Shown here piece by piece: positions 25,758 through 64,000 of a stretch of 64,000 bases of DNA (positions are counted from its first letter, which is position 1; each line of letters opens with the position of its first letter). A program made the position numbers and the translations under genes. Origin of the DNA: Streptomyces sp. NBC_01314 (GTDB lineage: Bacteria > Actinomycetota > Actinomycetes > Streptomycetales > Streptomycetaceae). Under the pieces are notes generated by a model. That model saw nothing but the letters and a program-made list of their open reading frames with translations. It was not told where the DNA came from and did not search any database. The stretch lies in the NCBI RefSeq assembly GCF_041435215.1, contig NZ_CP108394.1, positions 11,098,001 to 11,162,000 on the forward strand. The letters are read 5' to 3'.

Positions 25758-26705
25758 ATGGACGTGCGCGCACGGGGCATCAACTACGACACAGGGTTCC
25801 TCCCAGGGGAAGAACTCTCCCGCAAGAGCTTCACCCCTGAGACGGTCCGGCACGACATGGCGGTGATCTCCGAGGATCTCCGATGTGACGCCGTTCGTAT
25901 CACCGGACGAGAGCCTGAACGGTTGAGCATCGCTGCCCGACACGCTGCTGACGCGGGCCTTGAGGTCTGGTTCGCCCCCTTTCCTGTGGACCTTCCCCGC
26001 GACCAGTTGCTCCCGCTCTTCGCCGACTGCGCCGCTCGGGCCGAAGCCGTACGGGAGGCTGGCGCCGATGTGGTGTTCGTCGCAGGCTGCGAGATCAGCG
26101 CGTTCTGCGGCGGCTTCCTCCCGGGCGACACCTACGGCGACCGTATGCGGGCCATGGCCGCCGCCGACATGGAATGGTGGTCCTCCCTCGGACCGGTGCA
26201 AGAACGCCTCAACGACTTCCTCTCCCAGATCGCCGCGACCGTCCGTACGCACTTCGGCGGGCAGGTCACCTACGCCTCGGCTCCCTGGGAGTTCGTCGAC
26301 TGGGGTGCGTTCGACCTCGTCGGCATCGATGCCTACCGGGCCGCCTACAACGCCGACAGCTTCCGGGACGAGCTGCGTGGGCACCTCGCCCACGGCAAGC
26401 CCGTCGCGGTGACCGAGTACGGAACCTGCGCGTACCAGGGCGCGGGAGAACGTGGCGGCATGGCCTGGCAGGTGCCGCACGGCGCGGTCCCGGACGAAGA
26501 CGAGCAGGCGCGCTACCTCACCGAATTGCTGGACATCTTCGAGGAGGAAGGCGTGGACACCGCGCTCTGGTTCACCTTCGCCGGTTACAGCAGGCCCGGG
26601 GAGCAGGACCTTGGCTCCTACGGCGTCGTCCGGATGCTCGACGAGAGGCGCTGGGAACCGAAGAAGGTGTTCCATACGATGGCAGCCAGATACCAACGCA
26701 GCTGA
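25758..26705 (+). CDS. putative TIM-barrel glycoside-hydrolase-like protein
   Basis: A 315-residue cytosolic protein. The order of motifs suggests a TIM barrel: ARGINYDTGF at the start, VRITGREPERLSIAARHAAD, LEVWFAPFP, FVAGCEISAFC (possible acid/base Glu in GCEIS), DLVGIDAYR, PVAVTEYGTCAYQG (possible nucleophile Glu in TEYG) and TALWFTFAGYSRP. Two glutamates ending beta4- and beta7-like strands fit clan GH-A. Homologues are sometimes labelled abortive infection proteins; I have no evidence for that role. ATG 25758 lies almost on the AAGGGA at 25751-25756; GTG 25764 has better spacing. Confidence 0.82.
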   Translation: MDVRARGINYDTGFLPGEELSRKSFTPETVRHDMAVISEDLRCDAVRITGREPERLSIAARHAADAGLEVWFAPFPVDLPRDQLLPLFADCAARAEAVREAGADVVFVAGCEISAFCGGFLPGDTYGDRMRAMAAADMEWWSSLGPVQERLNDFLSQIAATVRTHFGGQVTYASAPWEFVDWGAFDLVGIDAYRAAYNADSFRDELRGHLAHGKPVAVTEYGTCAYQGAGERGGMAWQVPHGAVPDEDEQARYLTELLDIFEEEGVDTALWFTFAGYSRPGEQDLGSYGVVRMLDERRWEPKKVFHTMAARYQRS

Positions 26706-33253: not shown

Positions 33254-34135
33254 ATGCAACCAGTTGTCACCGTGGGCTTGGACGGCTCACCCGAGAGCCT
33301 TGCCGCCGCTCGCTGGGCCGCCGACGAGGCCGAGAAGCGCAAGCTGACCCTGCGTCTGCTGCATGCGTGGCCGCTGCTGGCGCCGGAACCGGCCCTCGTT
33401 CCCTCGGAGGTCGACCAGAACTACTGGGCGAAGCGTCTCGTCCACACCGCGCGAGCAGAGCTACAGACCCGCCACCCGGGACTGCTGGTCGTCGGGAGCC
33501 TGGTCCCCGACGACGCCCAGAACGCCCTGATCCAGGCTGCTGCGGAGTCGGAGATGACCGTGCTCGGCTCACGGAGGCTGGAGTCGGTGGAAAGCTACTT
33601 CCTGGGAGACATCAGTCTGCCCGTCGTCGCACGGGCCCAGCGGCCGGTCATCCTCGTCCGAGCCGATGCCCAGGAGCGGGCCGGGGAGGAAGTGCCCCAT
33701 AAGACAGCCGCGAGCCGCGTGGTCGTAGCCCTGAAACTGCACGGCTCCTCCGACGAACTGCTGGACTTCGCCTTCCACTCCGCCGCCGCCAGGGGCGTTC
33801 CGCTCCTGGCCGTCCACGGGCGGAGCGTGCCGCTCCACGCACGCGTGCCCTGGGGTGTGGACCACGATGTCACCGAGGAACTGACCGGGGACGCGCGAAA
33901 GCTGCTGGACAAGGCACTGCACCCCTGGCGCGAGAAGTATCCGCAGGTGGAAGTGGCCGACAGCGTGCGTCTGGCCGGCCACGCCAAGGCCGTCGTGCAC
34001 GCCGCCGAGGGCGCCGCACTGCTGGTGGTGGGCCGCAGTGCGCACCGCCACGGGCTGGGATCCCACCTGGGCCACGTGGTGCAGGCAGCGCTCCATCACG
34101 TGAGTTGCCCGGTGGCCGTCGTCCCCCACGGCTGA
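33254..34135 (+). CDS. tandem universal stress protein
   Basis: A 293-residue protein with two USP domains. The first begins VVTVGLDGSPESLAAARWAA; the second begins ASRVVVALKLHGSSDELLDF and keeps a good nucleotide-binding signature (VVGRSAHRHGLGSHLGHVVQ). In the first domain the equivalent loop (LGSRRLESVESYFLGDISLP) is altered, so ATP may bind only one domain. GGAGG at 33241-33245 fixes ATG 33254; the frame is open further upstream but not coding. USPs of this type respond to oxygen limitation, starvation or redox stress. Confidence 0.92.
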   Translation: MQPVVTVGLDGSPESLAAARWAADEAEKRKLTLRLLHAWPLLAPEPALVPSEVDQNYWAKRLVHTARAELQTRHPGLLVVGSLVPDDAQNALIQAAAESEMTVLGSRRLESVESYFLGDISLPVVARAQRPVILVRADAQERAGEEVPHKTAASRVVVALKLHGSSDELLDFAFHSAAARGVPLLAVHGRSVPLHARVPWGVDHDVTEELTGDARKLLDKALHPWREKYPQVEVADSVRLAGHAKAVVHAAEGAALLVVGRSAHRHGLGSHLGHVVQAALHHVSCPVAVVPHG

Positions 34136-53588: not shown

Positions 53589-54605
53589 TCACGGACGGAG
53601 CAGCGTCTTGATGGCGCGGCGTTCGTCCATGGCCTTGTAGCCTTCTGCGGCCTCGTCCAGGGGCAGGGTGAGGTCGAAGACCTTGCCCGGGTTGATGCGG
53701 CCGCTGAAGACACGCTCGATGAGGTCGGGAAGGTAGGCGCGCACGGGGGCGGGGCCACCGCGCAGCCCGACGTGGGAGAAGAAGAGCTGCTGGCCGTCGA
53801 TCTGCACGTCGTGCGGCATACCGACGAAGCCGACGTTGCCGCCCGGGCGCGTGGACTGCAGGGCCTGGTGCATCGACTCCTGGGTGCCGACGCACTCGAG
53901 GACCGAGTCCGCGCCGATGCCGTTCGTCAGTTCCTTGACGCGGGCGATGCCTTCCTCGCCGCGCTCGGTGACGATGTCGGTGGCGCCGAACTCCAGGGCC
54001 AGCTTCTGCCGGGAGGCGTGCCGGCTCATGGCGATGACGCGTTCGGCGCCCAGTTCCTTCGCGGCGATGACGCCGGACAGGCCCACCGCGCCGTCCCCGA
54101 CGACCACAGCCGTCGAACCCGGTTTGACCTCGGCCGCCTTGGCGGCGTACCAGCCGGTGCCCATGACGTCGGACAGGGCCAGCAGGTCCGGGATCAGCTC
54201 CTCGGCCGGCTGCTCCGGCACGGTGACCAGGGTGCCGTCGGCGAGGGGGATGCGGACGTACTCGGCCTGGGCCCCGTTCACCCACTGCGCGTGCTGACAC
54301 GATGTCTGGTAGCCGAACTGACAGATCGGGCAGGTGTTGTCGGAGGCGACGAAGGAGCCGATGACGAACTGGCCCGGCCTGACGCTTGATACGTCGCTGC
54401 CGACCTCCTCGACGATGCCGACGTACTCGTGGCCGATCGGCTGCGGCTCAACAACCGGCAGGACACCCCGATAGCTCCACAGATCGGAGCCGCACACGCA
54501 GGCGGCGACCGTACGGATGACCGCGTCCGTCGGTGCCGTGATCCCTGGCTCGGGAGCGTTCTCCACCCGGATGTCACCGGGTGCGTGAATGACGGTTGCT
54601 CTCAT
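53589..54605 (-). CDS. zinc-dependent alcohol dehydrogenase
   Basis: A 338-residue MDR alcohol dehydrogenase. Catalytic zinc ligands are Cys38 (VCGSD), His59-Glu60 (PIGHEYVG) and a later acidic residue; the structural zinc site is CPICQFGYQTSC, with fewer cysteines than classical enzymes. The cofactor motif is GDGAVGLSGVIAAKELGA. The substrate domain is unassigned. It lies in an operon-like series with a carboxymuconolactone decarboxylase-like gene, a cupin relic and a SnoaL-DUF2255 protein, a combination often seen near MmyB- or TetR-controlled detoxification genes. Confidence 0.93.
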   Translation of the reverse strand: MRATVIHAPGDIRVENAPEPGITAPTDAVIRTVAACVCGSDLWSYRGVLPVVEPQPIGHEYVGIVEEVGSDVSSVRPGQFVIGSFVASDNTCPICQFGYQTSCQHAQWVNGAQAEYVRIPLADGTLVTVPEQPAEELIPDLLALSDVMGTGWYAAKAAEVKPGSTAVVVGDGAVGLSGVIAAKELGAERVIAMSRHASRQKLALEFGATDIVTERGEEGIARVKELTNGIGADSVLECVGTQESMHQALQSTRPGGNVGFVGMPHDVQIDGQQLFFSHVGLRGGPAPVRAYLPDLIERVFSGRINPGKVFDLTLPLDEAAEGYKAMDERRAIKTLLRP

Positions 54606-54929: not shown

Positions 54930-55262
54930 TCAGCTGGACTGGCCGGACTTCTCCACGGTCTCCTTGAGCTGGGTCATCGCGGTCATGGCGTTGGGCCATC
55001 CGGCGTAGAAGGCCAGATGCGTGATGGCCTCGACCAGTTCGTCCTTGGTCACGCCGTTCTCCAGTGCCTTGCCGAGGTGGAAGCCGAGCTGGTCGGTTCG
55101 GTACAAGGCGGCGAGAGCGGTGACGGTGACCAGACTGCGGTCGCGCGGGGACAGTCCCGGCCGCTCCCAGATGTCGCCGAACAGGACGGTGTCGGTCAGC
55201 TCCGCGAGCTTGGGAGCGAGCTCCTGGATGGCCGGCGGCGCGAACTTCTTCCGTTCGGACAT
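54930..55262 (-). CDS. carboxymuconolactone decarboxylase family protein
   Basis: A 110-residue helical protein of the CMD/AhpD superfamily. Conserved segments are RDRSLVTVTALAALYRTDQL and LVEAITHLAFYAGWPNAMTA, the latter ending with the characteristic H-L-A-x-Y-x-G-W-P. No CxxC is present, so it is not an AhpD-type peroxidase reductase. AAGGAGC precedes ATG 55262. It sits directly after the alpha/beta hydrolase relic (30-bp gap) and before the cupin relic. The reaction is unknown. Confidence 0.92.
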   Translation of the reverse strand: MSERKKFAPPAIQELAPKLAELTDTVLFGDIWERPGLSPRDRSLVTVTALAALYRTDQLGFHLGKALENGVTKDELVEAITHLAFYAGWPNAMTAMTQLKETVEKSGQSS

Positions 55263-55292: not shown

Positions 55293-56225
55293 TCAGGCTG
55301 CCCGGCCTTCGACCGGGGGTGGGGACGGGTGCTCACCGAAGAACGAGGTGAGCTTGGCGAGGGCGGGGAAACGTCTTCGTCCTTGTCGTAAAGGTCGAAG
55401 TGGGAGCGCCGTCGATCCAGAACAACTCCTTCGGTTCCCCCGGCCCGTTCGACGGTCCTTCGCCTGAAGTGGGCCGTGGCGGCCTCGCTGACCGCGACCA
55501 TCAGCAGCGGGCGCGGAGCGAGGCTTTCGATGCTGGCGAGGAGCCGTGCTGGGCGTCTGGTGGACACTGCGCAGCATCCACGCGTTCTCGGACCGCAGGT
55601 GCGCACTTCGTGCGGCGCGGCGGTAGTACTCGTACCGCTGCCGGAGGTGGTCCGGCGTCGTCGCGTCGACTTCCTCGGGCACGATGTGTTCGAGGAGGGT
55701 GGGCTCGCCGCGAGCCTCGTCCGTACGCAGGAGGCCTGCGCGGGCGAGGGGATCGCGGAAGACGGCCGGGCCTTGACCGCCGCCGAACCCGTCGCGCAGC
55801 AGGCTGCCGATGCAGGCGGCGCTGACCGTGCCGACGGCCCTGATGCGCTGGTCACCGATGGCGGCGTACAACGCGTGGCCGCCGCCGGTGGAGATGCCCA
55901 GCGCACCGATGCAGTCGGGGCCGACGTCCTTCTGGGCGCTGAGGTAGCTGACGGCGTCCTGGATGTCCTCGGCTCGCTGGACGGGGTTCTCCAGGAAACG
56001 GGGTTCGCCTTCACTCGTGCCCTGGTGGGCGGTGTCGAAGGCGAGGACGGTGAAGCCGTGCTCGGTCAGTCGCCGGGCGTGGAGCCCCGCGGTCTGCTCC
56101 TTCACCCCACCCCACGGGCGGATGACCACGATCGCGGCCAGCGGGTGTCCGACGCGGGCGTCGGGCGTGTGAAGGTGACCGGCCGGCGTCAGGCCGTTGC
56201 TGACGAAGGTGACATCCGTCCGCAC
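55293..56225 (-). pseudogene. alpha/beta hydrolase with several frameshifts in the C-terminal half
   Basis: The first 215 codons from GTG 56225 are intact: VTFVSNGLTPAGHLHTPDAR, VIRPWGGVKEQTAGLHARRL, and nucleophile elbow GALGISTGGGHALY with a serine-like centre. After SENAWMLRSV the frame breaks; SIESLAPRPLLMVAVSEAAT and RRSHFDLYDKDEDVSPPSPS are in another frame, and LAKLTSFFGEHPSPP in the first again. It is a paralogue of the intact gene at 63110-64000. GGAGGAG lies 12-15 bases before the GTG. It would have headed the operon with CMD, cupin and ADH. Confidence 0.75.
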
Positions 56226-56433
56226 TGTTTTTCTCGCCTCCTCCGCCTGCAGCATGGAAATACGGGATATCGGTGACGTGCGGAAAGTAATTCTGTCCCG
56301 GGGGCTGGGCGTCCCGCTTGTTCGGGTGGATGCTCTCCGCAGACCGATTCTGGTCGCCGAACACGCCATCGAGCGTGCCGCCTTTGAAGGAATCAGCAAA
56401 GGGGAGAATTCCATCCTCGGCATCCCTTATCCA

Positions 56434-56454
56434 GGGGAGAGATTCTTACCCCCC
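56434..56454 (+). promoter_or_regulatory. MmyB-operator candidate 1
   Basis: GGGGAGAGATTCTTACCCC starts here and runs on with CC, 34 bp before the first MmyB-type gene and between it and the divergent hydrolase relic. 17 of 19 bases match the site at 62937-62955. Confidence 0.65.
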
Positions 56455-56487
56455 TCGTACAGACCGAGCGGTGCGAGACTCGCTGAC

Positions 56488-57363
56488 ATGACCAGCGACG
56501 CGCATCTGAACGGGCTGGGAGAATTCCTCAAGGTGCGGAGGGCGGAGTTGACCCCGCGCACCGTCGGTCTGCCCGACACCGGTGGTCGGCGTGTACCTGG
56601 CCTGCGCAGGGAGGAGGTTGCCCTGCTCGCCGCCATCAGCGTCGACTACTACACACGGCTGGAACAGGGCCGCATCCAGCCGTCAGCGTCAGTGCTGGCC
56701 GCTCTCGCCCATGTCCTGCATCTGGATGATCACCAGCGTGACCACCTGTTCGAGCTGGCCGGCCGGCAGAGGGCGCGACACCGTCGCCCGGCCGTACAGA
56801 AGGCGCACCCGCAGTTGTGCCGCCTACTCGACGATCTCTCCGTGAGCCCCGGCGTGGTGATCGGCCGCAGTATGGACATTCTGGCGTGGAATCCGCTCGC
56901 CGCCGCCCTGGTGACCGATTTCGCGAAGGTGCCGGAAGACAAGCGGAACTGCGTCCGGATCCTCTTCGAGGATCCGTCCATGCGGACGCTGTACGCGGAC
57001 TGGCGGGCCGTTGCCCGTGGCTGCGTGTCCCATCTGCGCATGATGGCCGCCAAATACCCGGACGATCCGCGGCTGACCAGTCTGGTCGGCGAACTATCCG
57101 TGCAGGACAGGGACTTCGGGCAGTGGTGGGGAAGCCGTCACATGCCGTCGCGCAGGCTGGGCATGAAGAGGTTCCACCACCCCGTCGTCGGCGAACTCGT
57201 CCTCGACTGGGACACCTTCACCTGCGGCAGCGATCCCCATCAGGAACTCGTCGTCTGGACAGCGGAACCCGGCACGCCGTCGTACGACGGGCTGCGTGAC
57301 CTCGCCTCACGGGCCTCCGGTCAACTCGGCGGGCCCGCCGGCCGGGCCGGTCGACCGGTCTGA
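56488..57363 (+). CDS. XRE regulator with MmyB-type ligand domain (paralogue 1)
   Basis: A 291-residue regulator. XRE helix-turn-helix at residues 8-75 with the family hallmark VPGLRREEVALLAAISVDYY, TRLEQGRIQPS; MmyB-like C-terminal domain at about 105-280 with VIGRSMDILAWNPLAAALVT, FEDPSMRTLYADW, RDFGQWWGSRHM and HPVVGELVLDWDTFTC. In the known structure of a related protein this domain binds a fatty-acid-like ligand. It is divergent from the CMD/ADH operon and 98 bp before paralogue 2. Its own promoter carries operator candidate 1. Confidence 0.93.
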   Translation: MTSDAHLNGLGEFLKVRRAELTPRTVGLPDTGGRRVPGLRREEVALLAAISVDYYTRLEQGRIQPSASVLAALAHVLHLDDHQRDHLFELAGRQRARHRRPAVQKAHPQLCRLLDDLSVSPGVVIGRSMDILAWNPLAAALVTDFAKVPEDKRNCVRILFEDPSMRTLYADWRAVARGCVSHLRMMAAKYPDDPRLTSLVGELSVQDRDFGQWWGSRHMPSRRLGMKRFHHPVVGELVLDWDTFTCGSDPHQELVVWTAEPGTPSYDGLRDLASRASGQLGGPAGRAGRPV

Positions 57364-57408
57364 TCCGGCGCCGCGCACTCGGGAGGAACAAGGTGAATTA
57401 CCGAACCT

Positions 57409-57426
57409 GGGAAAAAACTCTCCCCC
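57409..57426 (-). promoter_or_regulatory. MmyB-operator candidate 2
   Basis: Plus strand GGGAAAAAACTCTCCCCC; its complement GGGGGAGAGTTTTTTCCC matches the GGGGAGAG...CCC pattern with a shorter centre. It ends 36 bp before ATG 57462. Confidence 0.5.
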
Positions 57427-57461
57427 TCATTTCTCGGGTGAATGCTGCGACACTGACTGCT

Positions 57462-58331
57462 ATGTACAGCGAAGCGCATTTGTCTGAACTGGGAGAATTC
57501 CTCAAGAAGCGCCGAGCCCAACTCAGCCCGCGGACCGTGGGCTTGCCCGAGTCCGGCACACCTCGGCGCGTGCCGGGCCTGCGCCGTGAGGAGGTCGCCC
57601 GACTTGCGGGGATCAGCGCGTACTCCTACGCGCGGTTGGAGCAGGGGCGCGCCCCTGTGCCGAGGTCGGTGCTCACTGCTCTGGTCCGTGTCCTGCACCT
57701 TGATGACAACCAGCGCGACCACCTGTTCGAGCTGGCCGCGAGCGGCGGGTATGAACCGCGCCGCCGACCGGCGCAGAAGGTCCACCCGCAGCTCAGACGC
57801 ATCCTGGACGAGCTGACAGCGACTCCCGCGCTCGTCCTGGGCCGACACCTGGACATCCTCGCCTGGAACCCTCTGGCCGCCGCTCTGCTCACCGACTTCG
57901 ACCGGATCCCCGACAAGAAGCGCAACTACGCCCGGCTGCTCTTCACCGACCCCGCCTTCCGGGAGCTCTGCCTCGATTGGAGGACGAGCGCTCGGACCTG
58001 CGTCGCCCACCTGCGCCTGGAGGCCGCAAGGCGCCCTGACGATCCCGGTTTGGCCGCACTCGTCGGCGAGCTCTCGGTGGCCGACACCGACTTCCGCCAG
58101 TGGTGGGCCGGCCGTCAGATGATTGGCCTGCGAATGGGCACCAAGAGGCTGCGACACCCGCTCGTCGGCGACCTCACCCTCGACTGGGACAGCCTGACCT
58201 GCACAGCCGACCCCGCACAGAAGCTGGTGATCTCGACCGCCGCGCCCGGGACCCCGTCCCATGACGGACTCCTCTTCCTCGCGTCGTGGAATGCGGACCC
58301 GAATCAGTCGGCACGTGATGCGGCAGCCTGA
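57462..58331 (+). CDS. XRE regulator with MmyB-type ligand domain (paralogue 2)
   Basis: A 289-residue protein built like paralogue 1: SELGEFLKKRRAQLSPRTVG, VPGLRREEVARLAGISAYSY, ARLEQGRAPVP, then MmyB domain with LGRHLDILAWNPLAAALLTD, FTDPAFRELCLDW, TDFRQWWAGRQM and HPLVGDLTLDWDSLTC. ATG 57462 is chosen because the frame upstream is the promoter; a GTG at 57393 is in frame. It lies in tandem with paralogue 1 on the same strand and upstream of an SDR remnant that may have been its target. Confidence 0.93.
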   Translation: MYSEAHLSELGEFLKKRRAQLSPRTVGLPESGTPRRVPGLRREEVARLAGISAYSYARLEQGRAPVPRSVLTALVRVLHLDDNQRDHLFELAASGGYEPRRRPAQKVHPQLRRILDELTATPALVLGRHLDILAWNPLAAALLTDFDRIPDKKRNYARLLFTDPAFRELCLDWRTSARTCVAHLRLEAARRPDDPGLAALVGELSVADTDFRQWWAGRQMIGLRMGTKRLRHPLVGDLTLDWDSLTCTADPAQKLVISTAAPGTPSHDGLLFLASWNADPNQSARDAAA

Positions 58332-58530
58332 CCGCGACGGGGGCAGTCGGCTCGCGCCGTCGTGCCGCCCCTGAGCGTAGGTGGCGATGGACCCCGCCGG
58401 GGCGCTGAACCGGATCGCCTTCCTGCCGGAGCGGTGCCTGGCGCCCCCTGCAGCGTGCGTGTCTTCCGTGCGGTCGTCGGCCGCCGGCGGGGGCTCCGAC
58501 GGCGAGGTGCGGGCACGGGCTGAGACCGGA

Positions 58531-58758
58531 ACACTGCAGTCACTCATGGGCGTCGGCCCCAAGACAGCGCAGGTGTGGGCGGCGACGTCCCCCCGGCTGG
58601 CTGGCCTGACCGGCCTCTACCTGGTGGAGGACCGCGACATCACCGATCCCGCTCCCTCGGACGGTGAGTTGCGCGGTGTGAAGGACTGGGCGATCGACCC
58701 CGAGCACGCAGCGCGCCTGTGGGAGCTGTCGGCGGAGCTGACGGGCGTGAACGCTTTC
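58531..58758 (+). pseudogene. SDR oxidoreductase C-terminal fragment
   Basis: TLQSLMGVGPKTAQVWAATS, PRLAGLTGLYLVEDRDITDP and KDWAIDPEHAARLWELSAEL, TGVNAF. This is the end of a retinol-dehydrogenase-like SDR (the WA-T-S-x-x-L segment followed by the acidic tail). The Rossmann half is absent. SDRs are frequent neighbours and targets of MmyB-type regulators. Confidence 0.6.
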
Positions 58759-58943
58759 ACCGCGTGGTGCGTGTCCGGAGAGGGGAGCGCCCTGCTCGCT
58801 CCCCTCTCCGGACTCCCCGAGATGGATGAGCGGTACCGGCCCCCAAGATCGTGGCCACCAGTGCCACGGGTAGCACCGGTACCAGGGTGGTGCGGCTCCT
58901 CGCGAAGTGTCCAACGGGTGCTTCGGCTCTGACCGATTCCGCG

Positions 58944-58983
58944 CGGCTGCGGCCGGACTTCGTACCATGTCCGGCCGCAGCCG
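58944..58983. terminator. bidirectional 15-bp hairpin terminator
   Basis: CGGCTGCGGCCGGAC (58944-58958) and GTCCGGCCGCAGCCG (58969-58983) pair perfectly around a 10-base loop, between the plus-strand SDR fragment and the minus-strand oxidoreductase ending at 59029. Confidence 0.75.
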
Positions 58984-59028
58984 TGAGGTGGCGTTGAGGG
59001 CCGCCCCTGTGCCCATACGGCCCTCGGA

Positions 59029-59961
59029 TCAGAACGTCAGGATCAGTCGGCCCCGTACGCCGCCTGTGGCGAGGAGCCGGTGAGCTTCGGCGGCCTGCTT
59101 CGCCGGGAACATCTTCGCGACCCGCAGCGTGATGCTGCCTTCCTCCGTCTGCTGTCGGAGCCGGTCGAGCTTGGCGCGCTCCCTGGCGTAGCGGAACACG
59201 ACGATCGGCTGGAAGACGATGTCTCGTTCGCCAGGGCCGTCGTAGCCGCGCAGTGTCACCACTCGGCCGCCGTCGCGTACCGCCCGAGCGGTGAGGGCGC
59301 CGAGCGACGCGGCGTCGAGGAGTCCGTCGACGCCGTCAGGTATCTCGGCGCGTACCCGGTCCGGGTACTCGGCGCCGCGACGGAGTACGACGTCGGCACC
59401 GAGTTCCTTGATCAGGGTCTCGTCCTGGTCCGAGGCGTCGGCCACCACCCGCAGCCCGTCCGCCTTGGCCAGCTGGACGGCGTAGCCGCCCACCGCACCG
59501 GCCGCTCCGGTGATCGCGACGGTCTGGCCGGGCTCCAGGCCGAGCGTGTCCAGGGCGAGGCGCGCGGTCAGGCCGTTCATCGGGAGCGACGCGGCCTGTG
59601 CGTCGGTCGCGCCGTGAGGGGTACGGACGACCGAGTCCACCGGGACCACGACCTGCTCGGCGTAGGCGCCGTGCGCGCCGTCGGGGAGCACGATCGCCAT
59701 CACGTGGTCGCCGACGCTCAGATCCGTGTCCGTACCCGTGCCGATCTGGTCCACGACCCCGGCGGCTTCCATGCCGGGAACGAACGGCGGCTGGGCGTCC
59801 GGCGACCGGGCGGGTCCACCGCGCTGGAGGGCGTCGACCGCGTTGACGGTCGCGGCGTGCACCCGGATGCGCACCTCGCCCGGACCGGCATCGGGGGCGG
59901 GCAGCTCAAGAATCTGAAGCACCTCCGGCCCACCGAATTCCGTGAAACCTACAGCCTTCAT
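59029..59961 (-). CDS. NADP-dependent quinone oxidoreductase (MDR family)
   Basis: A 310-residue zinc-free MDR enzyme: N-terminal MKAVGFTEFGGPEVLQILEL, the GMEAAGVVDQIGTG segment, nucleotide motif ITGAAGAVGGYAVQLAKADG and C-terminal HRLLATGGVRGRLILTF typical of quinone or enone reductases. ATG 59961 is preceded by GAGGTG; the frame is open far upstream but not coding. Operator candidate 3 lies 107 bp before the start. By analogy it detoxifies quinones or enals under control of an MmyB regulator. Confidence 0.93.
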   Translation of the reverse strand: MKAVGFTEFGGPEVLQILELPAPDAGPGEVRIRVHAATVNAVDALQRGGPARSPDAQPPFVPGMEAAGVVDQIGTGTDTDLSVGDHVMAIVLPDGAHGAYAEQVVVPVDSVVRTPHGATDAQAASLPMNGLTARLALDTLGLEPGQTVAITGAAGAVGGYAVQLAKADGLRVVADASDQDETLIKELGADVVLRRGAEYPDRVRAEIPDGVDGLLDAASLGALTARAVRDGGRVVTLRGYDGPGERDIVFQPIVVFRYARERAKLDRLRQQTEEGSITLRVAKMFPAKQAAEAHRLLATGGVRGRLILTF

Positions 59962-60067
59962 TCGAAGCACCTCACTGCTCGGCATGCGGTCGTTGAGGTG
60001 TCCGACCTTTTCGTCTCGCGCACGCCGGGAAAAGGGGAAGGTTCTTGGCTGGGATGCGGTCATAGGA

Positions 60068-60086
60068 GGGACGAATCCCTCCCCCC
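60068..60086 (-). promoter_or_regulatory. MmyB-operator candidate 3
   Basis: Complement reads GGGGGGAGGGATTCGTCCC, 17 of 19 bases identical to candidate 4. It precedes the quinone oxidoreductase gene by 107 bp. Confidence 0.6.
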
Positions 60087-60089
60087 ATG

Positions 60090-60420
60090 ACACCAGCACC
60101 GGTGAGAGATGCGATGCTCCTCCCGGTCGCGCTGTGGCATGCCGATGAGAGCGAGTGTGTGGGGCAGTCTGGGGCAGGCTCATCCTGAGGGCGGAACGAG
60201 CGGTTCCGGCGGTCAGAGCGCCCAGACGGGCGTGGACGAAGCCGCTGAGGAGCATGCCGACGGTGGTCACAGCCGTTCAGCCGACCGTCGCCCACAGCAC
60301 CGGGGCGGCGGTCGAGCCGATCGCGCCGCCGGGGAAGTCGCTCGTGACAAAGGCCGTATTCTCCGCCGGGCGGGGCTCTGTATGGGAGGCAGGCCGGTGA
60401 GATGCGCTCGTTCAGCAATG
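60090..60420 (-). other. gene-sized gap with hydrophobic frame fragments, no intact gene
   Basis: Minus-strand fragments AENTAFVTSDFPGGAIGSTA, APVLWATVG, stop, VTTVGMLLSGFVHARLGALT suggest the end of a membrane transporter, but no family can be named. Candidate operator 5 lies just upstream of it. Confidence 0.25.
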
Positions 60421-60480
60421 CCCGCTGATTTTTTTCGAGCCCATGCAGGCGAATCCTGTTCAGCGGGGCAGCCCTGGCCA

Positions 60481-60500
60481 GGGGGAAAGACTTCTCCTCC
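60481..60500 (+). promoter_or_regulatory. MmyB-operator candidate 5
   Basis: GGGGGAAAGACTTCTCCTCC; its complement (GGAGAAGTCTTTCCCCC) resembles the other sites more weakly. It sits between the third regulator's stop and the decayed membrane-protein stretch. Confidence 0.35.
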
Positions 60501-60523
60501 TGCGGACGCACGTGGGAGAGGGC

Positions 60524-61393
60524 TCAGGTGACGGTGTCGGACGCGGTCCGTTTGTGGTCTGCGGCCCAGGAGGCCAGGAGGCGTAGTCCGTCGTGGGAGG
60601 GGGATCCGGGTTCGGCGTTCCATACGATGATGTGCTGGTCGGGGTCTGTGCCGCAGGTGAGGGTGTTCCAGTCGAGTGTGAGGTCGCCGATCACGGGGTG
60701 ACGGAGTTTCTTGACGCCTTTGCCGCGCATGGCGACGTCGTGTGCGGTCCACCACTGCCGGAACTGTGCGTCGCGGGTGGAGAGTTCCTCGACCAGGGTG
60801 GTGAGGCGCTCGTCGCCGGGGTAGCGTGCGCTTTCCATGCGCAGCTGGGCGATGGCCAGCCGGGTGACTTCTTCCCAGTCGGTGTACAGCTCGCGCATCC
60901 AGGGTTCGGTGAACAGCAGCCGGACGAATACGCGTTCCTGTTGCGGGTAGCGTCCGAAATCGGTCCACAGGGCGGCGGCGAGCCGGTTCCAGCCCAGGAT
61001 GTCGGTGCGCCGGCCGATGACGAAGGCGGGGGAGGCGGTGAGGTCGTCCAGCATGCGCTGCAGCTGTGTGTCCACCTGCTGACGGTCGCCCGAGGTGGGT
61101 GGGCGCGGCGTCCCTTTCGCCGCGAGGTCGAAGAGGTAGGTGCGCTGGTCGTCGTTGAGGCGGAGTGCCTGGGCGATCTCGTTCAAAAGGGGTGCCGATG
61201 CCTGGAGGCGGCCCTGTTCGATCCGTGTGTAGTACTCGGTGCTGATCGCGGCGAGCAGGGCTACTTCCTCGCGGCGCAGACCGCTCACCCGCCGCCGTTG
61301 CCCCTCGCGGAGTCCGACCTGGGAAGGGCTGACCTCGGCGCGGCGGGCCTTGAGGAACTCACCCAGCTCGTTCAGATGAGGATTGCGGTTCAT
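60524..61393 (-). CDS. XRE regulator with MmyB-type ligand domain (paralogue 3)
   Basis: A 289-residue regulator like paralogues 1 and 2: LNELGEFLKARRAEVSPSQV, VSGLRREEVALLAAISTEYY, TRIEQGRLQAS, then MmyB domain with VIGRRTDILGWNRLAAALWT, FTEPWMRELYTDW, AQFRQWWTAHDV and HPVIGDLTLDWNTLTC. ATG 61393. It faces the DJ-1/SnoaL genes and the quinone oxidoreductase on the same strand. Operator candidate 4 lies 36 bp before its start, the same distance as for paralogue 2. Confidence 0.93.
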   Translation of the reverse strand: MNRNPHLNELGEFLKARRAEVSPSQVGLREGQRRRVSGLRREEVALLAAISTEYYTRIEQGRLQASAPLLNEIAQALRLNDDQRTYLFDLAAKGTPRPPTSGDRQQVDTQLQRMLDDLTASPAFVIGRRTDILGWNRLAAALWTDFGRYPQQERVFVRLLFTEPWMRELYTDWEEVTRLAIAQLRMESARYPGDERLTTLVEELSTRDAQFRQWWTAHDVAMRGKGVKKLRHPVIGDLTLDWNTLTCGTDPDQHIIVWNAEPGSPSHDGLRLLASWAADHKRTASDTVT

Positions 61394-61428
61394 GACTTGC
61401 AGCCTCGCACAGAAGCCCGGGGTTGTGA

Positions 61429-61447
61429 GGGGGGAGGGATTCCACCC
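61429..61447 (+). promoter_or_regulatory. MmyB-operator candidate 4
   Basis: GGGGGGAGGGATTCCACCC, ending 36 bp before the start of the third MmyB-type gene; nearly identical to candidate 3. Confidence 0.6.
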
Positions 61448-61487
61448 ATGGTGGCCTGGCTCAGGTACGCATTTTCATCGTGGTGGA

Positions 61488-61521
61488 CTCGGCGGCCCGG
61501 GGTGCGTGCCGGGCCGCCGAG
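61488..61521 (-). terminator. 13-bp hairpin terminator after the DJ-1/PfpI gene
   Basis: CTCGGCGGCCCGG (61488-61500) and CCGGGCCGCCGAG (61509-61521) pair perfectly around an 8-base loop, 20 bp beyond the stop codon at 61541. Confidence 0.75.
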
Positions 61522-61540
61522 GGATCACACGGCTGTGGTG

Positions 61541-62242
61541 TCAGCCCGCCAGTGCCCTGACGAGCTCGTGGGCCAGCGGGACCGCGGAGCCCGGGTTCTG
61601 GCCGGTGTACAGGGTGCGGTCGGTCTCGACGTGCGGGGCGAACGGCTCGCTCTCACGGTAGTCGGCGCCGAGTTCGTCGACGAGGCGGTCCTGCAGCAGC
61701 CACTTCGCGCGGTCCGCGAGACCGTTGAGTTTCTCCTCGGCGTTGGACAGGCCGGTCATCCGGTAGCCGGCGAACGGCGACGTGCCGTCCGCACCGATGG
61801 TGGCCAGCAGCGCCGCGGGGCCGTGGCACACCAGGGACACCGGCTTGCCCGAGGCGAGCCACTGGGTGAGCAGCCGGCCGGAGGCGGCGTCGTCGGGCAG
61901 GTCCTCCATCGGGCCCCAGCCGCCGGGGTAGAACACCGCCGCGTAGTCGTCGATGTTCACGTCCTCGATGCGCATCGGGTGCGCGAGCTCGCTCGCCTCG
62001 CGCAGGGCGGTGCGCATGCGCTGCGCGCCTTCCTCGCCGCCGTTGAACTCCGCGGTGAGGCTGAGCGCGTCCGCCGTGGGCGGCACGCCGCCGGGTGTCG
62101 CCGCCGCGATCTGGTATCCGGCTTCCCTGAAGACCTGGTAGGGGCCGATTGCTTCCTCGGCCCAGAAGCCGGCCGGCTGCCGGGTTGCGTCGGCCAGCGT
62201 CCAGTGGTCGGACGCGGTGATCACGAAGAGGATCTTCGCCAT
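61541..62242 (-). CDS. DJ-1/PfpI family protein (type 1 glutamine amidotransferase-like)
   Basis: A 233-residue protein of the DJ-1/Hsp31 fold. It starts MAKILFVITASDHWTLADAT, has the acidic residue in GFWAEEAIGPYQVF, the segment YAAVFYPGGWGPMEDL and the nucleophile elbow VSLVCHGPAALL with the reactive cysteine. AGGAGC precedes ATG 62242. This larger subgroup includes methylglyoxal-detoxifying and chaperone-like members. It is downstream of the SnoaL gene with a 31-bp gap and closed by a strong terminator. Confidence 0.93.
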   Translation of the reverse strand: MAKILFVITASDHWTLADATRQPAGFWAEEAIGPYQVFREAGYQIAAATPGGVPPTADALSLTAEFNGGEEGAQRMRTALREASELAHPMRIEDVNIDDYAAVFYPGGWGPMEDLPDDAASGRLLTQWLASGKPVSLVCHGPAALLATIGADGTSPFAGYRMTGLSNAEEKLNGLADRAKWLLQDRLVDELGADYRESEPFAPHVETDRTLYTGQNPGSAVPLAHELVRALAG

Positions 62243-62273
62243 GGTCTGCTCCTGATGAAATGGGTGGGGGGCT

Positions 62274-62666
62274 TCAGCCCTTGAGGGCTTCCTGCAGGAC
62301 GTGGCTGTCGGCGGCCTGGCGCATGCTGACGGCCCTGCCGTCGCGGACGGTCCACAGGTGGATGAAGCGGACGTCGGCCTTGTTCCCGGTCTTCGTCTGG
62401 GCGTGGTAGTGCCCCAACACGAAGACATGGCCTTCGTCGTCGGCGTAGAACTCCTCCGCCACCGCCCCGAAGGACTCGTAGTTCGGCATCGTCCTGCCGA
62501 AGAAGTCCTTCGCCGCGCTGTCCCAGCCGTGGTAGACGCCGCTGTTGGGGAAGCCGGGGGTGATGTCCCACACGAGGTCCGGCGCCATGACCTCGGCGGT
62601 GACTTCCGGGGCCATTGCGGATTCGTAGAGCCGGCGGATGAGGGCGAGGTTCGGGGAGTCGGACAT
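62274..62666 (-). CDS. SnoaL/NTF2-like protein
   Basis: A 130-residue NTF2-fold protein: LALIRRLYESAMAPEVTAEV at the N-terminus, DLVWDITPGFPNSGVYHGWD with the common F-P-x-x-G-x-Y-x-G pattern, and VRFIHLWTVRDGRAVSMRQA. Such proteins are often isomerases or stress-related binding proteins. AAGGAGCCACCC precedes ATG 62666. It is cotranscribed with the DJ-1 gene. A related but distinct SnoaL domain is fused to DUF2255 at 52595-53479. Confidence 0.9.
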   Translation of the reverse strand: MSDSPNLALIRRLYESAMAPEVTAEVMAPDLVWDITPGFPNSGVYHGWDSAAKDFFGRTMPNYESFGAVAEEFYADDEGHVFVLGHYHAQTKTGNKADVRFIHLWTVRDGRAVSMRQAADSHVLQEALKG

Positions 62667-62735
62667 GGGTGGCTCCTTGCGGAAGGTGGGTGGGGGGTGG
62701 ATCGGAATCGGATACGGGGAGGAAAGGCCTGGTGA

Positions 62736-62867
62736 TCAGGCGGCGAGAGCGGCCCGTCCCGCGCGGAAGACCGCGGCCCGGCACGCGACCCGAGCACCCA
62801 GGAAGAAGCCCAGCCGGCTGATGTCGCCCTCACTGCCCGTGGTGGAGTCCCGGCCGGAATCGGACAT
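62736..62867 (-). CDS. possible 43-residue protein
   Basis: A short frame from ATG 62867: MSDSGRDSTTGSEGDISRLG, then FFLGARVACRAAVFRAGRAA, LAA. AGGAG lies ten bases upstream. The first residues (MSDS) resemble those of the SnoaL gene 69 bp downstream, which may mean a truncated relative or a genuine small protein. It is the first frame after operator candidate 6. Confidence 0.4.
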   Translation of the reverse strand: MSDSGRDSTTGSEGDISRLGFFLGARVACRAAVFRAGRAALAA

Positions 62868-62936
62868 GGTGAGGGGCTCCTCGAAATGTCTTGGTCGGTG
62901 TGCGACCAAGCTTTGCATCGGAAGAGCGCGCTGTGA

Positions 62937-62955
62937 GGGGTAAGAAAATCTCCCC
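62937..62955 (-). promoter_or_regulatory. MmyB-operator candidate 6
   Basis: Complement reads GGGGAGATTTTCTTACCCC, 17 of 19 bases matching candidate 1. It precedes the small frame, the SnoaL gene and the DJ-1 gene. Confidence 0.65.
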
Positions 62956-63109
62956 TCCCTGCCGCGCTCCCGGTATGCGAATTCGGTCCGACGCCGGATC
63001 CTGCGGGGCGGTCCGTCCCGCACCCGCGTGGTAGGACAGTCGCAGTTCGCGTTCGCCGCTTTGTCCGGGACCGGTTTCTGCGCCTACTCGGCTGAGGCGT
63101 TGTGGGCCT

Positions 63110-64000
63110 CTAGAGGACGGCGAAGAACTCCACCATCTTGGGGATCGCCTGGTCCATGTATTCAGGCACGTCGTACAATGCGATATGCGTTGCGCCTTCG
63201 ATGACGAACAATTCCTTCGGCCCCTTGGAAAGCTCGTAGGCCTGGTCGCTGAATACCTTTGTGTCCGCCTTGCTCCCTGCGATGAGGAGCATCGGCTGGG
63301 TAAGCAGTTCCGGGATCTGGTCAAACGCCGAGAAGGCGAACATCTTGTCCATGCTGGTCAGCAGGAAACGGCCCTTCGAATTTGGATGCTGACCTCGCGG
63401 CGTCCTGTAGTAGTCGTACCCCTCGCGCAGGAGGTCCGGGGTGCTTTCGTTGATCTCTTCCAGCGTTTCCGGGATGAACGGGGCGTAGACGGGCTCCGCA
63501 CCTCGCGCTTCCGCGGTGCGCTGGTTGGAGACCATTTCCAGCGTTCCGATCTGCTCGGCCACCGGGGACATGTGCCCCAGAAAGCCCCTGGAACCCTCGC
63601 CCATCGGAGCTGCGCTGACCGTGGCCACTGCCTTGAAGCGACGTTCGGTCTGGGCCACGCTGATCGCGTAGCCGCCGCCGGCGCAAATGCCGAAGACCCC
63701 CATGCGCTCGGAGTCGACGAACGGAAGCGTGGTGAGGAAGTCGGCTGCACAGCGAGCGTCTTCCACCCGGGTCGTCGGGTCCTCCAGGAGGCGGGGTTCG
63801 CCACCGCTCGCTCCCTGATATGAGGAGTCGTAGACAACGGTGACGAATCCCTGCTCGGCGAGCTTCTTGGCGTAGTGGCCGATGGTCTGTTCCTTTACGC
63901 CTCCGGCCGGATGGATTCCGACGAGTGCCGGATACGTCTTGTCTTCGCTGAAGTTTTCTGGCAGATGGAGATGTCCTGAAATCTCTACTGCCTTGTTCCT
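63110..64000 (-). CDS. alpha/beta hydrolase, dienelactone-hydrolase-like (5' end outside window)
   Basis: 297 codons of an alpha/beta hydrolase whose N-terminus lies beyond the right edge. Segments in order: SGHLHLPENFSEDKTYPALV, IHPAGGVKEQTIGHYAKKLA, YQGASGGEPRLLEDPTTRVE, then the nucleophile elbow GVFGICAGGGYAISV with Cys instead of Ser, as in dienelactone hydrolases, and GATHIALYDVPEYM with the catalytic His. It is the intact paralogue of the relic at 55293-56225, which has Ser-Thr at the elbow. Codon use is clearly less GC-rich than the neighbours, a sign of recent transfer. Confidence 0.92.
   Translation of the reverse strand, partial: RNKAVEISGHLHLPENFSEDKTYPALVGIHPAGGVKEQTIGHYAKKLAEQGFVTVVYDSSYQGASGGEPRLLEDPTTRVEDARCAADFLTTLPFVDSERMGVFGICAGGGYAISVAQTERRFKAVATVSAAPMGEGSRGFLGHMSPVAEQIGTLEMVSNQRTAEARGAEPVYAPFIPETLEEINESTPDLLREGYDYYRTPRGQHPNSKGRFLLTSMDKMFAFSAFDQIPELLTQPMLLIAGSKADTKVFSDQAYELSKGPKELFVIEGATHIALYDVPEYMDQAIPKMVEFFAVL

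Follow-up and report, generated by a model that had tools for sequence, protein, structure and literature searches.

Introduction

Lambda cI, acting at OR2/PRM, and other activators of the XRE type bind as dimers to a dyad beside the -35 region, with paired operators lying between divergent promoters. In actinomycetes, a large family of regulators is formed by MmyB/MltR proteins (PF17765; structure 3pxp), which have been proposed to be activators on the basis of structure and gene neighbourhood (Xu et al., PMC3406030). Three such regulators are encoded in a stretch of 64,000 nucleotides from Streptomyces sp. NBC_01314 (contig NZ_CP108394.1, positions 11,098,001 to 11,162,000), hereafter the window; between its end and the right end of the 11.33 Mb contig there remain about 166 kb. 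Here we describe a 22-bp dyad that stands ahead of all three regulator genes and of neighbouring redox genes, and the promoter layout into which it is built.

The window proteins have the same two-domain build as the family described in PMC3406030 and, as there, oxidoreductase genes for neighbours, often divergent; the activator proposal of PMC3406030 was made with SDR/MDR genes as the divergent partners. A profile of five proteins of the window clade matches 3pxp weakly (E 4.5e-7). The target predicted by Xu et al. is two-fold symmetric and about one turn wide. As far as the accessible part of that report goes, it gives no operator consensus, whereas a dyad, its mirror partner and a promoter layout are given here for one subclade; it does mention the “B-boxes” of MmyB in the methylenomycin cluster, pseudo-palindromic sites of a family member that is an activator. 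Searches of one open-licence library turned up no operator consensus for these regulators, although a related motif may be contained in the supplement of PMC12565409, a survey of XRE palindromes from 2025. The site would be a new operator in an established family of regulators, and an operator joined to a defined promoter layout makes target genes predictable from sequence and the question of on or off switching decidable.

Set beside lambda cI, the window system would be alike in its XRE-type dimer, its dyad by the -35 region, its paired operators and its proposed positive autoregulation; it differs in a dyad centre near -44.5 rather than -42, in apparently leaderless regulator genes, in a PAS-like ligand domain and in a mirror spacing of 30 bp. 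MsrR of Corynebacterium glutamicum (PMC7532634) is likewise an XRE protein with a divergent target and an oxidative stress theme, and is autoregulated, as we propose here; unlike the proposed window regulators, it is a repressor with a thiol switch.

A conserved dyad ahead of one regulator clade

The site is conserved in sequence, position and geometry, and is specific, on a genome-wide scale, to the clade of the window regulators, which is characterised by the N-terminus LGEFLK, a helix-turn-helix (HTH) domain and the MLTR ligand-binding domain (MLTR_LBD). Regulators 1-3 score 191-195 bits for PF17765 against a cut-off of 26.3, and the N-terminal XRE-type HTH (PF13560) is above cut-off in each of them. 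Upstream regions of relatives were taken from 80 named loci (L numbers below), from 30 loci of 150 genomes and from the own genome, with start codons assignable in 109 distinct genes; the 16 loci overlapping the window or its paralogues were omitted from the locus comparison. A blind motif search in 33 non-redundant upstream regions of the clade returned TCCTGGGAGAAATCCCTCCCCC (21 bits) in 29 of them, with 28 starts inside a span of 4 bp. The controls were four shuffled sets and eight equal-sized sets of other upstream regions belonging to these loci; at most 6 of their starts fell within 4 bp, and the motif log-likelihood was 322 as against 89 or less in these 12 controls. Written on the regulator sense strand, the complete element is a 22-bp dyad of approximately TCCtGGGAGnaAatyCcTCCCCC, the symmetry of which has its centre, counted from the start codon, between positions -45 and -44 (about -44.5; z 7.2, 40 genes).

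A sequence-only reading of the window had pointed to six copies of a 19-bp motif. All six sequences lie where it had placed them, and its two pairs agreeing in 17 of 19 bases (sites 1 and 6, sites 3 and 4) are confirmed, each pair being on opposite strands. The shared motif that it proposed does exist, but its consensus covers only a fragment of the dyad. Measured from the end of the 22-bp site, the distance to the ATG of regulators 1, 2 and 3 is 35, 35 and 36 bp (for regulator 3 on its identical copy), in keeping with the 34-36 bp claimed. The sites at 56434, 57409, 60068, 61429 and 62937 are supported; that at 60481 is present and scores 13.3 bits, but is doubtful, having no conserved counterpart that we saw among the fetched loci.

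The association of the site with MmyB-type genes and adjacent redox genes is likewise borne out, with enrichment far over background. On the window, the clade matrix gave 9 matches of at least 12 bits, a count that includes overlapping matches of one place, versus 0.87 expected from 100 order-3 Markov simulations, and 3 matches at 20 bits versus 0 in such simulations. Seven of the nine fall within 56.4-61.5 kb; the others are at 25802 and 33600. These belong to 25802-25823 and 33586-33621, where matches of 10.6-15.9 bits lie distant from the window MmyB genes, 25802 being within an open reading frame (ORF), and they are probably chance matches.

Sites similar to the dyad of regulator 1 stand ahead of relatives in loci L047, L052, L053, L301 and L306, and the dyad of regulator 2 is an exact match in the genome scan described below, 35 bp ahead of the gene. 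In the own genome, a profile search found 24 PF17765 matches, and six regulators of the window clade occupy four places (2.02, 2.64, 11.15 and 11.17 Mb). The dyad is present at all five members with distinct promoters (regulators 1, 2 and 3, L005 and L010); the remaining member, at 2.0 Mb, duplicates regulator 3 and shares its upstream sequence.

Genome-wide specificity

The sequence-only reading had proposed a motif search over the whole genome and over MmyB-type promoters of other Streptomyces. In 150 Streptomyces genomes, a 21-bp pattern with at most one mismatch had 62 matches, as against 5 for the reversed pattern, and the exact 21-bp consensus had 15. Twenty-seven of the 62, including 13 of the exact ones, share the strand of a listed MmyB gene and lie 34-35 bp (one 42) ahead of it. 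The exact match in L264 stands ahead of an MmyB-like gene or remnant, bringing the exact matches so placed to 14/15, and the remaining one is 3.6 kb from an MmyB gene. The L264 and L266 matches, outside the MmyB gene list, also precede MmyB-like genes; among 12 stretches refetched around matches without a listed gene, an MmyB core was found in four (L264-L267) and in none of the other eight. Where a genome encodes a close clade regulator (best E 1e-90 or lower; 33 genomes), exact sites occur in 13 cases, versus none of the 117 others (Fisher 3e-10), and 24 of the 47 one-mismatch matches are within the same 33 genomes. In the own genome, the 19-bp pattern with up to two mismatches is found at 56434, at 62937, at the 2.0 Mb copy of 62937, at a hydrolase site 110 bp past the window end and at one place at 11.05 Mb. 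The hydrolase site (C1:11162110-11162130) is ahead of the hydrolase gene ending at 63110. A separate observation concerns CCCGGTAATGATGTCTCCCCC, which recurs in seven Streptomyces genomes, among them loci L197, L198, L200 and L224, and may be part of a conserved coding region that has nothing to do with MmyB genes.

Because the 21-bp pattern was built partly from the same genomes, held-out genes were tested as well, from a family-level sample in which 25 of 121 genomes had a match. A site of at least 12 bits was found at 29 of 33 new, non-duplicate regulators (7 of 40 entries having been removed before counting, 3 seen before and 4 near-duplicates), with a gap of 30-39 bp in 23, of 44-46 bp in five and of 52 bp in one; 18 of the 29 have the extended -10-like element described below. 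The promoters are new, while at least three of the genomes look like the sources of L059, L061 and L064. In L287, L298, L300, L313 and L319 no start codon stands at the aligned start, and three of these are among the four genes in which the site was missed. Plasmid homologues, examined in 8 records out of the best ten of 290, carry the site in five cases.

As an operator for the whole family, the role suggested for it earlier, the site does not stand; it belongs to one MmyB/MltR subclade. It was not found ahead of genes of other MmyB clades, where the dyads are different, peaking at -44 in cluster 5 (z 3.6, 7 genes), at -54 in cluster 7 and at -75.5 in cluster 8, and a family-wide MmyB consensus was rejected since dyads differ between clades. 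By eye, the own-genome MmyB genes L003, L004, L006, L007, L012, L013, L015 and L016 have other dyads near their starts, GGGGTACTGACAGGGACCCC and GGGGGTGTGACAGGGCCCC being examples, and in many cases a -10-like hexamer immediately precedes the gene; these dyads are candidate operators of other clades.

Promoter layout

In 54 of 65 regulator promoters, and at 29 of 70 other sites, an extended -10-like element, TGnnAnnnT, starts 18-20 nt beyond the dyad; some of the 70 stand ahead of truncated regulators. At a distance of 16-19 nt, 28 of these 70 have it, versus a mean of 0.5 and a maximum of 4 in 500 shuffles. Where an ORF was called behind such a site, the element is present in 24 of 51 cases, of which at least one (L062 3944) is itself an MmyB gene, and 20 of the 24 are followed by a leader in which purine-rich sequence precedes the start; these gene and leader assignments are rough, as ORFs were chosen by composition and starts behind a purine-rich stretch were preferred. 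In regulator promoters only 6-7 nt separate the end of the hexamer from the start codon, a spacing that is a signature of leaderless genes (PMC3160421, PMC4895711), and for this reason the predicted regulator transcription start is at the start codon, which would give a leaderless mRNA. The dyad would then occupy about -57 to -36, adjoining the -35 region. An RNA hairpin or attenuator was rejected because the dyad is upstream of that start.

In a set of 34 regulator promoters no recognisable -35 was found, TTGACC being matched about as well as in random sequence. Some promoters do have CTCACA or CTGACA behind the dyad, but a classical -35 was rejected, the TTGACC match of the regulators being no better than random; at 19 other promoters it is somewhat better. 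Nineteen of 52 non-redundant regulator promoters have a second, mirror-image dyad 29-31 bp upstream, at 30-31 bp in 18 of them, and in the window such a dyad, at 56400-56421, faces the divergent hydrolase, CMD and dehydrogenase genes; seven further opposite-strand matches, at offset -14, overlap the main site.

In the L171 subclade, members with a site, apart from L334, have it either 34-36 or 44-46 bp before the start (the starts of L175 and L263 having been moved to the next ATG, and L337 having no start codon where aligned). A tree of the members with a site, other than L174 and L334, requires two changes of spacing, and one suffices in 4% of bootstrap trees. A shift of 10 bp, with the -10-like element fixed before the start, suggests contact on one helix face.

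Proposed regulation and its alternatives

We consider it probable that these sites are operators of one MmyB/MltR subclade, and that the regulator dimer activates its own gene together with nearby detoxification genes. A ligand-loaded dimer would bind the 22-bp G-run/C-run dyad adjoining -35 and aid RNA polymerase at the -35-less regulator promoters by class II-like activation; the want of a recognisable -35 makes it most likely that the bound dimer helps RNA polymerase there. The outcome would be positive autoregulation and co-activation of genes for a zinc alcohol dehydrogenase (ADH), quinone oxidoreductase, WrbA-like flavoprotein, SnoaL, DJ-1, carboxymuconolactone decarboxylase (CMD), hydrolase, aldo/keto reductase and efflux, with ligand control through the LBD, and the mirror dyad about 30 bp upstream in a good third of regulator promoters would serve the divergent gene. 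Binding by these regulators, the transcription starts, activation and ligand control are what we infer. A bolder version, which we offer as possible rather than probable, has the paralogous MmyB-type regulators activating themselves and one another through a shared operator that replaces the -35, with mirrored pairs in divergent promoters. If true, it would amount to a self-amplifying, cross-wired detoxification switch spread across the chromosome and, in other strains, plasmids, and to an RNA polymerase contact that demands the same helix face.

A number of observations weigh against activation through these sites. The site is absent upstream of clade genes in L051, L055, L061 and one L054 gene (4 of the 33 in the blind search), from 4 of 33 held-out regulators, from 3 of 8 plasmid homologues and from 7 of 20 relatives in the L171 subclade, in which L334 is an exception with a gap of 52 bp and a weak site of 12.0 bits. 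The shift in spacing may have had a single origin, and the fixed geometry could in part reflect descent from a duplicated promoter. Among the one-mismatch matches, 23 of 47 are in genomes without a close regulator, and seven scan matches are one repeated sequence. Among the non-regulator sites, the -10-like element is missing from its expected distance in 41 of 70 cases; a clear -10 is not seen 19 nt from the quinone oxidoreductase site, and the 62937 site scores just 4.4 bits. Moreover, 16 of 19 non-regulator promoters match TTGACC in at least three of six bases versus about 52% in random sequence, so that the targets may have a weak -35.

The last point is of some help to the account given by the sequence-only reading, in which the same operator serves autorepression, the dimer blocking RNA polymerase at the -35 region until released by ligand. 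The dyad does abut that region. Some XRE proteins autorepress, MsrR (PMC7532634) among them, and this too is a point against activation. As stated, however, autorepression is not supported, and we judge it fairly unlikely: 34 regulator promoters have no recognisable -35, the midpoint of the dyad (about -44.5) falls upstream of the core promoter, and its fixed distance to the conserved -10-like element recurs at 29 of 70 other sites. In one subclade the displaced sites are 10 bp further out, about one helical turn away, and the two dyads of a mirror pair are both upstream of both promoters. The mirror dyad, the -10-like element without a -35 and the 10-bp shift, none of them noted in the sequence-only reading, would together favour promoter-proximal activation over autorepression.

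There are three further explanations. It is improbable that the site is bound by some other regulator of wider distribution, which would control the MmyB genes together with the genes beside them; some sites do lack an MmyB gene in the fetched stretch, but exact sites are confined to genomes with a close clade regulator, as counted above, and five of eight plasmid homologues carry the site too. Still less likely is it that the motif is an upstream element of an alternative sigma factor promoter and not an operator. The fixed distance to the -10-like element would suit such a promoter; the two-fold symmetry of the motif about -44.5, the mirrored second copies in the opposite direction and a spacing that can grow by 10 bp would not, and the -10-like element resembles TANNNT, the -10 of ordinary Streptomyces promoters (PMC4895711). 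Finally, genomes of this kind are full of G and C runs, and chance similarity or hitchhiking conservation among close relatives might be suspected; the reversed-pattern scan, the Markov simulations, the control upstream sets and the held-out test refute this and leave it scarcely any probability.

Putative targets and other features of the window

Of the non-regulator sites, those at 60068 and 62937 precede the quinone oxidoreductase and the wrbA-remnant/SnoaL/DJ-1 genes, respectively, and both are kept in relatives. The quinone oxidoreductase site is at the same place in L061, L160 and L256. Counterparts of the 62937 site in L061, L062, L064, L160 and L256 are stronger and have the same -10-like element and nearly the same following sequence; behind such a site, L064 and L160 have a WrbA-like gene and L062 a SnoaL-like one. 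Oxidoreductase-type neighbours are found beside regulators 1 and 3: CMD, ADH and a hydrolase (so called from its resemblance to its paralogue) are divergent from regulator 1, and quinone oxidoreductase, SnoaL and DJ-1 lie beside regulator 3 on the same strand. In other loci, such sites are followed by genes for aldo/keto reductase, cupin, two hydrolases, flavin mononucleotide (FMN)-reductase/flavodoxin (WrbA-like), zinc alcohol dehydrogenase, CMD and MFS transporter (eight hand-picked proteins, both hydrolases being behind sites without a -10-like element) and, as in the window, by quinone oxidoreductase and SnoaL genes. Coordinates are collected in Table 1.

Table 1. Regulators, operator-like sites, -10-like elements and putative target genes, in window coordinates
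Feature	Position	Strand	Remarks
MmyB/MltR-type regulator 1 (HTH + MLTR_LBD)	56488..57363	+	PF17765 E 1.9e-56, PF13560 7.5e-13
MmyB/MltR-type regulator 2	57462..58331	+	PF17765 E 1.7e-57
MmyB/MltR-type regulator 3	60524..61393	-	PF17765 E 1.1e-57
Putative operator dyad of regulator 1 (earlier site 56434)	56431..56452	+	22.3 bits
Mirror-image second dyad, facing divergent hydrolase/CMD/ADH genes	56400..56421	-	12.3 bits; 31 bp from first
Putative operator dyad of regulator 2 (earlier site 57409)	57405..57426	+	29.8 bits
Putative operator dyad of regulator 3 (earlier site 61429)	61430..61451	-	23.6 bits
Operator-like dyad before quinone oxidoreductase gene (earlier site 60068)	60066..60087	-	13.9 bits; 17.1 on other strand
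Weak second site 33 bp downstream of 60066..60087	60033..60054	-	5.5 bits
Operator-like dyad before wrbA-remnant/SnoaL/DJ-1 genes (earlier site 62937)	62937..62958	-	4.4 bits
Doubtful site (earlier site 60481), before probable decayed gene	60481..60502	-	13.3 bits
Extended -10-like element TGCGAGACT of regulator 1	56472..56480	+	hexamer ends 7 nt before ATG
Extended -10-like element TGCGACACT of regulator 2	57446..57454	+	sequence
Extended -10-like element TGCGAGGCT of regulator 3	61401..61409	-	sequence
Extended -10-like element TGCAAAGCT, 19 nt after 62937 site	62909..62917	-	sequence
Zinc-type/quinone oxidoreductase, likely target	59032..59961	-	PF08240, PF13602
Remnant (43 codons) of flavodoxin/WrbA-like gene, first behind 62937 site	62736..62867	-	end residues match intact protein, L162
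SnoaL-like protein, likely target	62274..62666	-	PF12680
DJ-1/PfpI family protein, likely target	61541..62242	-	PF01965
CMD-family gene, divergent group behind mirror site	54930..55262	-	PF02627
Zinc alcohol dehydrogenase, same divergent group as CMD gene	53589..54605	-	PF00107, PF08240

The quinone oxidoreductase promoter (60033-60087) apparently has two tandem sites 33 bp apart, with a possible -10 after the weak second one, the counterpart of which scores 5.1 bits in L061, 5.3 in L160 and -0.6 in L256. The ORF at 62736-62867 resembles a WrbA-type flavoprotein gene that has lost its central part, the conserved 62937 site still being ahead of it; its last residues were compared by eye with the intact L162 protein, which is behind a like site. 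The segment 60170-60360 is 81-85% identical to pieces near two other regulator 3-like genes, has no clear reading frame and is probably a decayed gene. A stretch of 2.45 kb (60530-62980), comprising regulator 3, DJ-1, SnoaL and two sites, is 99.5% identical to C1:2016333-2018779, a likeness that points to recent duplication or gene conversion; the other matching parts of the paralogous island around the latter are 65-91% identical. Finally, the alpha/beta hydrolase gene at 55293-56254, divergent from regulator 1, looks frameshifted relative to its paralogue at 63110 onwards, and stop codons appear when it is read in a single frame.

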